The notes beneath the pieces were generated by a model, which made no database searches, had not been told where the DNA came from, and saw only the letters and a program-made list of their open reading frames with translations. The position numbers and the translations under genes were made by a program. A stretch of 22,798 bases of DNA from positions 1 through 22,798 of the IMG/VR virus record IMGVR_UViG_3300009132_000042. One strand, given 5' to 3'. Of this stretch, positions 2,995 to 19,900 are shown piece after piece; position 1 is the stretch's first letter; each line of letters begins with the position of its first letter. This DNA is from a virus.

Positions 2995-3285
2995 TTACCT
3001 GCGCATTAGTATTTCCATCATGCGATCCAGCTTGCTGTTAATCTCCTTGACGGATGTTTCCAACCCGCTCATGCGGTTTTCCACGGCTGTATCGCGTTCA
3101 CGTTGAGTAGCCAGTTCGACTTCTATCTTAGTCAGGCGTTGTTCGTCGGTGTCCAAGCGGTCGGAGAATTTCTTTCCGATCCATCCGAATACGCCGAGTA
3201 CAACCGCCAAAGCAGTGTCGAGAAAGTGGGAGATTTCTTCGGTCATGTTGTTTAGACTTCTATTTCTTCTACCACTAACGTCCAT
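2995..3285 (-). CDS. Single-TM coiled-coil protein, candidate holin or spanin component (gp17.5/18.5 region)
   Basis: 96 aa from the first ATG, or 83 aa from an internal ATG at 3246. One hydrophobic segment (residues about 22-36, TALAVVLGVFGWIG) is followed by KK and a charged heptad-like helix to the C-terminus (about 38-96). The long start has a strong GGAGG nine bases upstream (3295-3299) and overlaps the preceding gene by 34 nt. The short start lies 5 nt after that gene's stop with only a weak GAAG. The position between fibre and TerS matches the T7 lysis genes (holin 17.5; Rz 18.5 lies nearby). One TM with a coiled coil also resembles XhlA-like or inner-membrane spanin proteins. A membrane role is likely; which lysis role is undecided. 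Confidence 0.75.
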   Translation of the reverse strand: MDVSGRRNRSLNNMTEEISHFLDTALAVVLGVFGWIGKKFSDRLDTDEQRLTKIEVELATQRERDTAVENRMSGLETSVKEINSKLDRMMEILMRR

Positions 3286-10584: not shown

Positions 10585-12834
10585 TTAATTAGATAAAAGG
10601 TTTTCTTGTGCTTTCTGAAACGCTCCAAAAGACTCTGCATTATAAATTCCAAACTTCTGATATAACTCTCTCGTCTTTTCTTCTTCGGGCGTCAGTTTTT
10701 CACGAGCGTCGTCTTTTATTGATACTCTTGCCCATTCTGCTAATACCGTTTCTAGCTCTAACTGGTTCTTAAAAAGCTTAACGTCGTCGGCGTCCATCTT
10801 GTACGTCTCTAACTCGTCTGCTATTTCGGGGGTAAAAGTTGGGTATCCGAAGTTATAAAGAGAACGTCTGTACGATTTCGAATGATCGTTCTTCTTCATT
10901 TCGGCTCGGTCGCTTTGAATCTCTTGTTCGGTTATAAGTTTCCCTGCCAAAGCCATCTTGCGAGTCGTGTTGACGTTGTCTAATACCTTCAAAGTCTCGT
11001 ATTCAAAGTCTCCAAACTCTAACCAACCAGACTTGTCGATTACAGCTTTCCCTTGTTCTTTAATTTCTTTGGGATCTTCTTCTCGTGAACCTACTGCAAC
11101 CAATGAGACGAGTGCTTCAGCTTCACGTTCAAACCTCTTCTTTTCGTCTGCAATCGCTTGAGTACGCTCGTCACGTAAAGCCTTTTCCCTTTGGTCTGGC
11201 GGTAAATCTGCAACTTCCTTCGCCTTTTCAATCAATCGTTCATTAATAAAAGGCAAGGCTCTTAAAACAAAAGCGTCGTCAAAGCCGTCTGGTAGGTCGT
11301 CTGGGTCTATGTCACCTACGTCCGACGTCAACATTTTAAGTTGATTACCCAAAGCGAGCTTGGCAGTCTTGTAGACGTCCAACTCAACGATGTAATCGCC
11401 TTTGGTTTCTTCTTTGTCAGCTTCAATAAGTTCGGTAAAACCCGTTACACCGTACTGTTTGTTTTCCTCTTTAACGAAATCTCCCGCGTCCTTACCGATG
11501 TTCTCAGGTAGTTGTTTCCAAGCTCTAAATTCCGATACTTCTTTCTCTCTTGTTTCTGGATTTAACGCCGAAGGAGGAAGCGGGCTAATCTGGGCTGCCT
11601 CGAAACCGTCGTTTATTTTTCCTATGTTATCGTAGTAAAGATTGTACGCTTCGTCGCTTATGTTGTCTCGATTAGCCAGAACTCTCAAAGACTCGAAGAA
11701 CACGTTCAAAGGCGCTTCAGATTCTTTCACGCTCTCGATAAGTTCTTGTATCTTGTCTTCTCCCGCTCCCAACGCTCTATACGTGTCGATCATTTCCTTG
11801 GTAGTCGAGTTGTTGACCAAACCTGTTCGGAGAGAACCCATCACGCTAACTGCTCGATTGGCAAACCTACGACCTTGTCTAGCCAACGTGTCGGTACTAG
11901 ACGTACGTAACGAACTGGCAAGACTGCGATTCAACGGGTTCAGTAACGTTTTTGCGTCCGTGGTTCTGAAGATAGGTTTCTTGTTTACTTGTATGACGTT
12001 CATGGCTGCAAGCATACGCTCGGCGTCTGCATACCTACCGTTAGCCAACAATGCGTCCACCTGTTTAGCGTAAGCATTAACGATGATTTTACTACGGAGC
12101 TTCGGGTCGTTTACTCCTGCTTCTTTTAAAAGTTTCTCACGGTTCTGAGCGGTCAGTTGCAAACCAGCCGTGTCGAGTCCGATAGGTTCCCCCGTGTTCG
12201 GGTCTACCCGACGCCTAGTCATAACGTCCAGTTCCAGACCTAGTTCTTCCGACTGACCGTCTACGATAAAGTCGTCCATCTTCTTGTCGTAAGCTTTCAA
12301 CATATCAGCCTTGAACGGACCTGTTACGGCGTTCCAAAGTACTTTACCTCCGTCGCTGTTGGCTGCGTCCTGACCTACTTCTTCGCTGAACGCTTCCCAT
12401 TGACCTTTCATAAACTCGTCAACGGCTTCGAGGAAATCTCCTTGGTTCTTATATTTCTCCAAGTCCAGTAACTCGTCAGCCGAAGACTGCATGGAAGGTA
12501 ACAAGTTGTTGCTCACAGCTCGTTTAAGAAGCGTATTTCGGTACGCCTTGTTGCGTTGAATGCTCAGAAAGGTGTCGGGTTCGGTCTTGCGTATCTCTTC
12601 AAGCACGTCTGCGTCGCTGACCGTAAGAGCTTCTTGGGCACCTATCTGTCCTTGTACTTGACCTAAAGCCCCGTACTCTTTCAACGCCGTGTTAAAGCCA
12701 GAAAGCGTGTCAGCCAGATCCATCAACTTGTTACGACCTGCTTGTTGAACGGCTACTCCGTAATTCCCGCCGCTCTGAACGGTCGCTTGAAGTTGCGGTG
12801 CGTCTGGAAGATCTCGTACTTGTACTCTAGCCAT
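10585..12834 (-). CDS. Internal virion protein C (T7 gp15-like)
   Basis: A 749-aa protein, almost the same length as T7 gp15 (747 aa), in the conserved gp14-gp15-gp16 order. It is predominantly helical and highly charged, with no signal peptide or clear membrane segment. The N-terminus (MARVQVRDLPDAPQLQATVQ) and the following NYGVAVQQAGRNKLMDLADTL helix resemble openings of gp15-type proteins. In T7, gp15 forms part of the internal core and, with gp16, a periplasmic tube during ejection. The ATG shares one base with the gp14 stop (TAATG), so translation is probably coupled. Assignment relies on length, position and composition rather than on a catalytic motif. Confidence 0.88.
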   Translation of the reverse strand: MARVQVRDLPDAPQLQATVQSGGNYGVAVQQAGRNKLMDLADTLSGFNTALKEYGALGQVQGQIGAQEALTVSDADVLEEIRKTEPDTFLSIQRNKAYRNTLLKRAVSNNLLPSMQSSADELLDLEKYKNQGDFLEAVDEFMKGQWEAFSEEVGQDAANSDGGKVLWNAVTGPFKADMLKAYDKKMDDFIVDGQSEELGLELDVMTRRRVDPNTGEPIGLDTAGLQLTAQNREKLLKEAGVNDPKLRSKIIVNAYAKQVDALLANGRYADAERMLAAMNVIQVNKKPIFRTTDAKTLLNPLNRSLASSLRTSSTDTLARQGRRFANRAVSVMGSLRTGLVNNSTTKEMIDTYRALGAGEDKIQELIESVKESEAPLNVFFESLRVLANRDNISDEAYNLYYDNIGKINDGFEAAQISPLPPSALNPETREKEVSEFRAWKQLPENIGKDAGDFVKEENKQYGVTGFTELIEADKEETKGDYIVELDVYKTAKLALGNQLKMLTSDVGDIDPDDLPDGFDDAFVLRALPFINERLIEKAKEVADLPPDQREKALRDERTQAIADEKKRFEREAEALVSLVAVGSREEDPKEIKEQGKAVIDKSGWLEFGDFEYETLKVLDNVNTTRKMALAGKLITEQEIQSDRAEMKKNDHSKSYRRSLYNFGYPTFTPEIADELETYKMDADDVKLFKNQLELETVLAEWARVSIKDDAREKLTPEEEKTRELYQKFGIYNAESFGAFQKAQENLLSN

Positions 12835-17492: not shown

Positions 17493-18554
17493 CTACTTCT
17501 GCAATTCGATAGCAGCTTCGGGACGGAGAACTCCGTGACCCATAGCGTACTTCGCAATGAAAAGCGTGCCTTGACGCGAAATCTGATACTCGGACTCGGT
17601 AGCGAGATCGAGCAACTTCACGGTTCCAACGGCGCTTGGGTGGGCAACGATACCAATCGAGTTGGTGAAGTTACCATTGTACCCGCTTCCGCTGCCTCCG
17701 AATACGTCGTTGGACGCAGCTCCGTCGCCAGTAGCGGTCGAAGACAGATCGGTGGAAGGAAGGTGAGTTGACTTGTAGATATCGATACCAGCAACTTGAG
17801 CAATCGAACCAGAAGCGAGGGAGCCAGAGCCTCCTACGTCCTTGTTCGAAGCGGAAGTCGAGATGACGAGTGATCCACTGCCGCCAGTGATGAGCTTGTA
17901 GTACTCCTGTGGACGAAGAACGCAGAAGCGTCCGTCGGCAGGAACGTCGTTCTCGTCAAGCGCTTGAGCAGCGGTGAAGAGAGCGGCAACAAGTTCGGCA
18001 CCTGTAGGATCGGTGTTGTCTGCATCGTCTGAACCGTCAGCGATGGTTCCCATAGCGTTAGCGGATACGTCGAGTACTCCGCCGTCCTTACCACCAGTTA
18101 TGGTAGCTGCGGAACGAGCTGCTGCGATGAATACCTTGGCGATAGCAGTATCGAAACGGACGGCAAGAGCCTTACCCAACTCGTTAGCGTAAACGCTGCG
18201 GATGTCGTAGTGGTTCTTTACGTCGTCGATAGAACTGAGGAACGTGGAAGCGAGAAGGACGTCGTCGATAGTGATGACTACTTCGTTCTTCTTGATGTCG
18301 CTCAGATAGCTGTTACCGCTGTCTGCGATGTTCTGCCCTGGAGTGTAGTAAGAAGCGGAAGCAATGCCCGTTACGGGGAACTGCGCGCTCTTGCCATTCT
18401 CGATGGTGCGCATCGTGTGCAAACTCTTGAAAACGTTGTTTTCTTCGAATGTCGTTAATATTTCGCCAGCAAACTTCTTCAGAAAGAGAGCGTCTACGTC
18501 TCCTGCTGAATTAACCTGACCGACGCGTGAGGGAGTGGTGTCTCCATTAGCCAT
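17493..18554 (-). CDS. Major capsid protein (T7 gp10A-like)
   Basis: A 353-aa HK97-fold shell protein. It aligns readily with T7 gp10A: ALFLKKFAGEILTTF (22-36), GKSAQFPVTG (54-63), NHYDIRSVYANELG (114-127), HPSAVGTVKLLDLA (305-318) and IAKYAMGHGVLRPEAA (333-348). The middle holds glycine/serine-rich loops (224-250 and 270-294), which could be surface insertions. It has the best ribosome binding site in the window (AAGGAG, nine bases before the ATG), fitting very high expression. It is flanked by structured intergenic RNA on both sides. No gp10B-style slippery extension was recognised. Confidence 0.97.
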   Translation of the reverse strand: MANGDTTPSRVGQVNSAGDVDALFLKKFAGEILTTFEENNVFKSLHTMRTIENGKSAQFPVTGIASASYYTPGQNIADSGNSYLSDIKKNEVVITIDDVLLASTFLSSIDDVKNHYDIRSVYANELGKALAVRFDTAIAKVFIAAARSAATITGGKDGGVLDVSANAMGTIADGSDDADNTDPTGAELVAALFTAAQALDENDVPADGRFCVLRPQEYYKLITGGSGSLVISTSASNKDVGGSGSLASGSIAQVAGIDIYKSTHLPSTDLSSTATGDGAASNDVFGGSGSGYNGNFTNSIGIVAHPSAVGTVKLLDLATESEYQISRQGTLFIAKYAMGHGVLRPEAAIELQK

Positions 18555-18683: not shown

Positions 18684-19148
18684 TTAGCGTCTACCGCCTG
18701 GGGTGAAGTAAAAGCCGACGATAAGCGGATAGATGCAAGTTACGGCGAAGAGGGAAATATGCCCGCTTGTAATTGCCATATGGGCTTGTGACGCTTGAAG
18801 ATCGATGAGTCCCCATAGGAATGAGTTTCGACCTTCTCCGTCAAGATTTGTTGTTGTGAGGATTGGAACGCTTGGATAGACGGTGGTGAGGAGGGTAATT
18901 GTCGAGAGCGTGCACATCCCGATAACAGCAAGCATACGCCTAGTGCCGCGAACAAAAGCGCCGCCGTCTCCCCCGTTAAGTGTTTCTTGAAATTTAAGTG
19001 CATAATCATTGTTTCGCGCCTCGCGCATCATTTCCAGCTCGTACTTCTGTTGGCGGGCATCGACCATAGCGCCGAACACGCCTTTTAAGATTGATCCCAT
19101 CGCAGCGGAGCCTCCGCCCGTCAGGAACAACGTCAACAGTTCAAGCAT
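18684..19148 (-). CDS. Holin-like membrane protein between scaffold and capsid
   Basis: A 154-aa protein with a glycine-rich hydrophobic N-terminus (1-29), a charged helix (30-58, ARQQKYELEMMREARNNDYA) and two further membrane segments (about 71-99, RRMLAVIGMCTLSTITLLTTV, and 129-148). This layout resembles three-TM phage and gene-transfer-agent holin families common in marine phages. It starts 2 nt after the scaffold stop. T7 has no gene in this position. Holin function is inferred from topology; a membrane-associated virion or assembly role remains possible. A second frame inside it encodes a candidate lipoprotein (18740-19009). Confidence 0.75.
   Translation of the reverse strand: MLELLTLFLTGGGSAAMGSILKGVFGAMVDARQQKYELEMMREARNNDYALKFQETLNGGDGGAFVRGTRRMLAVIGMCTLSTITLLTTVYPSVPILTTTNLDGEGRNSFLWGLIDLQASQAHMAITSGHISLFAVTCIYPLIVGFYFTPGGRR
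18740..19009 (-). CDS. Candidate embedded lipoprotein (Rz1/o-spanin-like) in a second frame
   Basis: An 89-aa frame wholly inside the holin-like gene in a different reading frame. The N-terminus has basic residues (FKKH), a hydrophobic core TAALLFAALGVCLLL and a perfect lipobox LSGC with Cys32, so a 58-residue mature lipoprotein is predicted, with Ala at +2 (compatible with the outer membrane). The mature part is short and has a Ser/Pro-rich opening (LPSSPPS), as in Rz1-type outer-membrane spanins, which are also often embedded genes. GAGG lies nine bases before the ATG. Against it: the frame could be a shadow of the parent's codon pattern, and Rz1 normally nests in Rz rather than in a holin. 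Confidence 0.45.
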   Translation of the reverse strand: MIMHLNFKKHLTGETAALLFAALGVCLLLSGCARSRQLPSSPPSIQAFQSSQQQILTEKVETHSYGDSSIFKRHKPIWQLQAGIFPSSP

Positions 19149-19150
19149 AG

Positions 19151-19900
19151 TTAAATTTTGGAAGACACAGCCAAGCGGCGTTCAAGTTCGTTATGATAAG
19201 CCGTGTCTCCACTCTTGTAGCGAGGATCACGCATAGCCCGACTGACTTCCTGCATCGATTCAAAAGGCAGGGTCGAAGATCCAGTCGTGTTACCCGTGAC
19301 AAGCTTGGGCTGGCTTCCGCCTACTTCCGCTTTGTAACGAGCGTATAACCCGCTTACTACGAGTTTGGCTTGATCTACGGAACCATTGTTTACCGTTTCG
19401 TTAAAAGTGTTCATCTCGTCATCAGTCAGCGTCTTTTCCGCCCATTCCGATAACGCATCGTATTCGCCGTTGGCTGCTGATTTGATCTGCGTAGCCTCGT
19501 TCTCTTGAAGAGCAGCTTGACCACGTGCATAGCCGTCAACCAATTCACGGCTAAGACCAGCTTGAGCAAGTAGCTCGTAAGTTTCTTCGGACAATTTGCC
19601 ATCGTTCTCAAAGAACTCCTTGGAAGCATCCGTGATTAAAGTCTGAGCTGGGTTAGGTTCGGTAGTAGGTTCGGTTTCGTTCTCAACTGCTTCTTCCGTA
19701 ACTTCTTCCTTGTCGGTTCCTAACTTCGATTCGAGTTCGCCGTAGGCTTTTGCCATGTCTTCGGGAGACTTGAACTTTTCGGGGAGCCATTCGGGGCGTT
19801 CTTCTTCCTGTACGTTATCCTGTACAGCTTCGGTTGCTTCTTCTGGTTCCACCTCGTTAGGCGCTGGTTCGTTTATTTCTACTTTTTGATAGTCGGTCAT
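19151..19900 (-). CDS. Capsid assembly scaffold protein (T7 gp9-like)
   Basis: A 249-aa very acidic protein, shorter than T7 gp9 (307 aa), that guides procapsid assembly and leaves before maturation. The motif RPEWLPEKFKSPEDMAKAY (35-53) is the hallmark of phage scaffold proteins of this group. An acidic, low-complexity stretch (63-84, EEVTEEAVENETEPTTE) follows, then a helical domain, and a basic C-terminal end (ERRLAVSSKI) suited to binding capsid protein. It lies between portal and capsid genes, interrupted by the holin-like gene. No strong ribosome binding site is seen. Confidence 0.92.
   Translation of the reverse strand: MTDYQKVEINEPAPNEVEPEEATEAVQDNVQEEERPEWLPEKFKSPEDMAKAYGELESKLGTDKEEVTEEAVENETEPTTEPNPAQTLITDASKEFFENDGKLSEETYELLAQAGLSRELVDGYARGQAALQENEATQIKSAANGEYDALSEWAEKTLTDDEMNTFNETVNNGSVDQAKLVVSGLYARYKAEVGGSQPKLVTGNTTGSSTLPFESMQEVSRAMRDPRYKSGDTAYHNELERRLAVSSKI

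Follow-up and report, generated by a model that had tools for sequence, protein, structure and literature searches.

The question raised by this locus is whether the gene for a 154-aa membrane protein, which holds a complete 89-aa open frame in its +1 frame, encodes a second protein, and what that protein would do. The window, by which we mean the whole 22.8-kb stretch analysed, is a fragment of an uncultivated T7-like marine phage with its late genes on the minus strand, in the order portal, scaffold, the 154-aa parent gene, capsid, tail tubes, internal virion proteins, fibre genes, a 96-aa membrane/coiled-coil protein, TerS and TerL; the portal, fibre and TerL genes are presumably such, their names being assigned from position. 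The relevant features are these:

2995..3285, minus strand: small 96-aa protein with a transmembrane (TM) segment and a coiled coil, between the tail-fibre genes and TerS (weak PHROG matches; homologues in related contigs)
17493..18554, minus strand: major capsid protein, downstream neighbour of the parent (phrog_267, E 1e-78)
18684..19148, minus strand: parent gene, 154-aa membrane protein (hydropathy; conserved in IMG/VR relatives)
18740..19009, minus strand: nested gene, predicted 89-aa lipoprotein precursor, probable outer-membrane spanin (open frame, synonymous suppression in the parent, lipobox conservation)
18914..18925, minus strand: lipobox LSGC, with the Cys codon at 18916-18914 (sequence)
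18932..18934, minus strand: upstream Cys26 codon of the nested frame, within GVC in the window and so not a lipobox here (alignment of nested frames)
19019..19022, minus strand: Shine-Dalgarno-like GAGG, 9 bases before the nested ATG (sequence)
19151..19900, minus strand: head assembly (scaffold) protein, upstream neighbour of the parent (phrog_1052, E 2.8e-47)

The nested frame lies wholly within the parent ORF, at 0.30-0.88 of its length. Its product begins MIMHLNFKKHLTGETAALLFAALGVCLLLSGC, then ARSRQLPSSPPS..., and would be a precursor with a 31-aa signal peptide followed by a 58-aa mature protein from Cys32. The initial annotation had described an 89-aa frame with a basic N-terminus, a hydrophobic core, an LSGC lipobox, a Pro/Ser-rich mature start and a GAGG nine bases before its ATG, and all of these are borne out on the sequence. 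Beyond the signal peptide no further hydrophobic segment occurs (maximum 19-residue hydropathy of the mature part -0.21), and the predicted periplasmic tail carries a conserved block around S-x-F-x-x-x-K-P-(L/I)-W.

Relatives of the parent collected from IMG/VR comprise 158 distinct nucleotide sequences, nearly all of 154 aa. No cultured phage record carries the parent, which is known only from uncultivated phage contigs. The one match in a bacterial collection, on a 9.5-kb MAG contig labelled Gammaproteobacteria, likely belongs to a phage fragment and therefore does not establish a host. Among loci fetched with the nested protein as query, we found no free-standing copy of it: all but one contain the parent, and that exception (L226) begins inside the gene; the other nominal exceptions are the window's own locus and AP013544.

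If the nested frame were a chance feature of parent codon choice, it should be interrupted in many relatives, and the initial annotation had proposed that stops among close homologues, or loss of the cysteine or start codon, would count against it. In all 158 relatives the +1 frame runs without a stop from the region of the nested start to codon 130-141, while the other alternate frame of the parent has stops in 30 of 30 representatives sharing <95% nucleotide identity. These same 30 all keep the nested frame open, 28 of them with a lipobox. When synonymous codons were resampled at the codon usage of the family, the frame remained open in 0.3-8% of trials per sequence (typically ~2%), and resampled parents combined an open frame with a lipobox in <2% of cases. 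For eight relatives with near-saturated four-fold sites, the joint chance of an open frame is ~2e-14 (log10 P -13.7); in the same eight, 71% of four-fold third positions differ outside the overlap but only 44% inside it. The hydrophobic signal and the cysteine persist throughout, whereas the ATG at parent codon 47, from which the nested frame starts in the window, is absent in 10 of 65 representatives, where another start would be needed. In one relative (L219) the parent is internally frameshifted, probably through an error of sequencing or assembly, such that parent sequence appears in the nested frame of that region.

The initial annotation had also suggested that synonymous variation in the parent would be reduced over the nested frame, and this is what we find. 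Up to codon ~66 and beyond codon ~133, synonymous change is at normal to high levels; it is depressed from ~67 to ~132, which matches the end of the nested frame at codons 130-141. The suppression is limited to the nested stretch: the ratio of synonymous change inside to outside is 0.57, a value reached in 0 of 20,000 column permutations and ranking 2 of 154 circular shifts. Similarly, third positions account for 77% of all changes before the overlap and 86% after it, but 60% over the mature part. This pattern of synonymous and third-position change is the signature of a second coding frame, and we conclude that the nested frame is almost certainly a genuine protein-coding gene. Suppression is absent over the nested n-region (codons 47-66), which makes the exact nested start less secure than the remainder of the gene. 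Of the 65 representatives, 85% have the ATG at codon 47, compared to 48% in the synonymous null, and 46% have a Shine-Dalgarno core, compared to 23%.

Conservation of the lipobox, which the initial annotation had named as a further check, was also observed, with the site occupying one of two positions. We numbered the two cysteines, C72 and C78, by +1-frame codons counted along the parent; they stand six codons apart. A canonical lipobox is present at one or the other in 139 of 158 relatives. It is at C78 (LSGC, LSAC, LLGC, LLAC) in 105, and at C72 only (LGGC, LAGC, LVGC) in 34, in which the C78 site reads SEW, LEW, LGW and similar, apart from the frameshifted L219. In other clades the lipobox (LLGGC, LLAGC) uses the cysteine equivalent to Cys26 of the window. 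The remaining 19 have a non-canonical site, mostly LHAGC (HAGC) but also of the QGGC or SSGC types. Both nested cysteines follow from parent Met codons, and the residues before them are set by parent wobble bases. Movement of the site along the signal peptide, alongside a nearly constant parent protein, would be expected from selection on lipidation, and the nested product is very likely a lipoprotein.

These observations bear on the view that the nested frame is untranslated, that RNA structure or codon bias constrains the parent codons, and that the lipobox is an accident of Met codons. In keeping with such an accident, a parent Met codon with T or C after it dictates each of the two cysteines, but the residues before the cysteine depend on wobble bases and are kept nonetheless, and most sequences that lose the C78 lipobox have one at C72. 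With no stops in 158 sequences and a suppression that shares the boundaries of the nested frame, we regard this explanation as nearly excluded.

What, then, would a lipoprotein encoded here do? The reading that fits best, on grounds of architecture, is the one offered in the initial annotation, that the nested gene encodes an Rz1-type protein: the gene probably specifies the outer-membrane half (o-spanin) of a two-component spanin. As in Rz1-type o-spanins, a lipobox, here LSGC, follows a basic n-region and a hydrophobic core (as judged by motif and hydropathy), and the 58-aa mature part is short, with no further TM segment. In a six-frame scan of the window, the nested frame is the only convincing lipobox signal peptide; likewise, in four longer related contigs (two T7-like and two of different layout), the nested gene is the only credible one with an ordinary start on a coding strand. 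Thus, if the sequence read from these phages holds an o-spanin, the nested gene is it. The nested protein has no significant family match, with PHROG spanin matches at only E 0.05-0.09, but spanins in SpaninDB are extremely diverse, with >40% of families being singletons (PMC6139136), and the absence of a spanin-family match is therefore weak evidence against an o-spanin.

Two other roles have to be weighed against the o-spanin reading. The nested protein might be a lipoprotein with a different job, for instance superinfection exclusion at the outer membrane or receptor blocking. Small phage lipoproteins with such roles exist, the partner protein is only a candidate, and no spanin model matches the nested family significantly; on the other hand, the gene sits among late structural genes and next to small membrane/coiled-coil genes, and the scanned contigs hold no other lipoprotein able to serve as o-spanin. 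We consider this role unlikely. Alternatively, the parent itself might be an unusual multi-TM inner-membrane spanin (i-spanin), in which case the locus would be an ordinary embedded Rz/Rz1 pair. All described embedded o-spanins do sit in an i-spanin gene (PMC6139136), and a low-confidence model places a charged, helix-predicted stretch after the N-terminal hydrophobic part of the parent. By hydropathy, however, two TM segments of the parent are clear, at residues 72-90 and 131-149, and a third, N-terminal one is weak; a charged helix lies between, and the protein ends in GGRR. The two clear segments, together with positive charges at 67-71 and at the C-terminus, place the charged helix in the cytoplasm and leave a periplasmic loop of ~40 residues. 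An i-spanin is laid out with a single N-terminal TM segment and a large periplasmic C-terminal domain, whereas the parent has, by the same hydropathy analysis, two strong TM segments in its distal half. Moreover, separate coiled-coil proteins adjoin the parent in 59 of 99 relatives. We judge that the parent is improbable as an i-spanin. The AlphaFold model of the parent (pLDDT 48) is too weak to use, and family searches with the parent gave no match. The label 'holin-like', given to the parent in the initial annotation, was a guess that no holin model in Pfam, NCBIfam or PHROG confirms; PF11351 (GTA_holin_3TM) is silent, and Pfam searches over 16 parent members returned only a stray OppC_N.

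SpaninDB distinguishes embedded, overlapped and separated two-component spanins as well as unimolecular ones; embedded o-spanins lie inside the i-spanin gene, in the +1 or -1 frame, and a +1 frame with a Pro-rich tail is a known pattern (PMC6139136). The nested gene shares with lambda Rz/Rz1 a short o-spanin-type lipoprotein lying wholly inside another gene, in the +1 frame, with a Pro/Ser-rich periplasmic tail, but lambda Rz1 sits in the i-spanin gene, whereas the host gene here encodes a multi-TM membrane protein unlike an i-spanin. We found no sequence similarity to lambda Rz/Rz1. With T7 gp18.5/gp18.7 the window shares the T7-like late gene order and the embedded type of o-spanin; the T7 spanin genes lie between the terminase genes, however, and the nested gene between the scaffold and capsid genes. 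The unimolecular spanin gp11 of T1 has a similar N-terminal lipoprotein signal, but proteins of that type also have a C-terminal TM segment, which the nested protein lacks. In the open-access literature we found no description of an o-spanin nested in a holin-type gene, and one may exist elsewhere. We give about even weight to the full proposal that an o-spanin gene is nested in the gene of a protein other than its partner, whether holin-like or another membrane protein, and that its lipobox has switched between cysteines six residues from each other, with the sequence of the host protein almost unchanged.

In favour of the o-spanin reading, the capsid/scaffold slot of Ayaqvirus S45C18 (AP013544) also holds a lipoprotein frame (LMSGC) inside another ORF. 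On the minus strand of AP013544.1 (L232), a 104-aa annotated ORF at 11734-12048 contains a 73-aa unannotated lipoprotein frame at 11766-11987, and a 62-aa membrane protein is present as well. The lipoprotein frame gives a weak match to Rz-like spanin (E 0.01), but the two proteins have no detectable sequence relation to the parent or nested protein, and the case is a single genome; the locus may represent an unrelated lysis cassette at this position. Nothing comparable was found in the capsid/scaffold slot of roseophage CRP-361 or pelagiphage HTVC304P.

In the account that fits best, the parent mRNA would be translated twice. Initiation at the parent ATG would give the 154-aa inner-membrane protein, and initiation at the internal ATG, in the +1 frame, would give the 89-aa prolipoprotein, a product whose coding status is backed by comparative genomics and whose exact start is less sure. 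The signal peptide suggests that Sec would export the prolipoprotein, that lipid would be attached at Cys32, and that the protein, after cleavage by signal peptidase II, would be sorted to the outer membrane. The 58-residue Ser/Pro-rich periplasmic tail may then bind a phage inner-membrane coiled-coil protein and, once endolysin has removed the peptidoglycan, fuse or disrupt the outer membrane, like lambda Rz1.

The parent is flanked by the scaffold and capsid genes in T7-like relatives. Other relatives have it at a different place, usually right after a small single-TM coiled-coil gene. Of 99 relatives, 59 have a TM and coiled-coil gene directly upstream, which is of a 72-78-aa type in 36 and of a 105-113-aa type (phrog_20984-like) in 23, and both types occur within 1.5 kb of the parent in 26. 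The 105-113-aa type has an N-terminal TM segment and then a coiled coil, the layout expected of an i-spanin, and has no match to any spanin family. These small upstream proteins are possible inner-membrane partners and the best candidates for that role. Against the o-spanin reading, no coiled-coil gene adjoins the parent in the window genome. Neither the window nor its near-identical contig yielded the 107-aa partner candidate. The 96-aa protein at 2995..3285, with weak PHROG matches to 'lipoprotein', Rz-like spanin and holin families, is a candidate membrane lysis protein of holin or i-spanin type and a putative partner. It also counts against the o-spanin reading that, in the loci read, none of the genes beside the parent was recognised as an endolysin.

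If this reading is correct, an o-spanin-like gene conserved within an unannotated membrane-protein gene would help to account for outer-membrane breakage by some marine phages, and would mean that an o-spanin can be nested in a gene other than its partner's. The locus would also offer a clean case in nature of a lipobox that changes position in a doubly coding sequence. Annotation easily misses overlapping genes. Some phages, including marine cyanophages, are listed as lacking spanins (PMC6139136).

Several loci show further arrangements of these small genes. In L187 (2306-2847), L154 (4460-5001) and L148 (4460-5001), small TM and coiled-coil genes stand in tandem directly before the parent, in both orders and in some cases with start/stop overlap (ATGA). 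This tandem pair suggests a mobile lysis-type cassette in otherwise different phages. A homologue of the 107-aa coiled-coil gene (G007:C1:13783-14091) contains an in-frame TGA. Near the contig end, at 64-339 on the minus strand of the window, a short tandem repeat codes for TPLDLPSQ units within a spurious-looking ORF.
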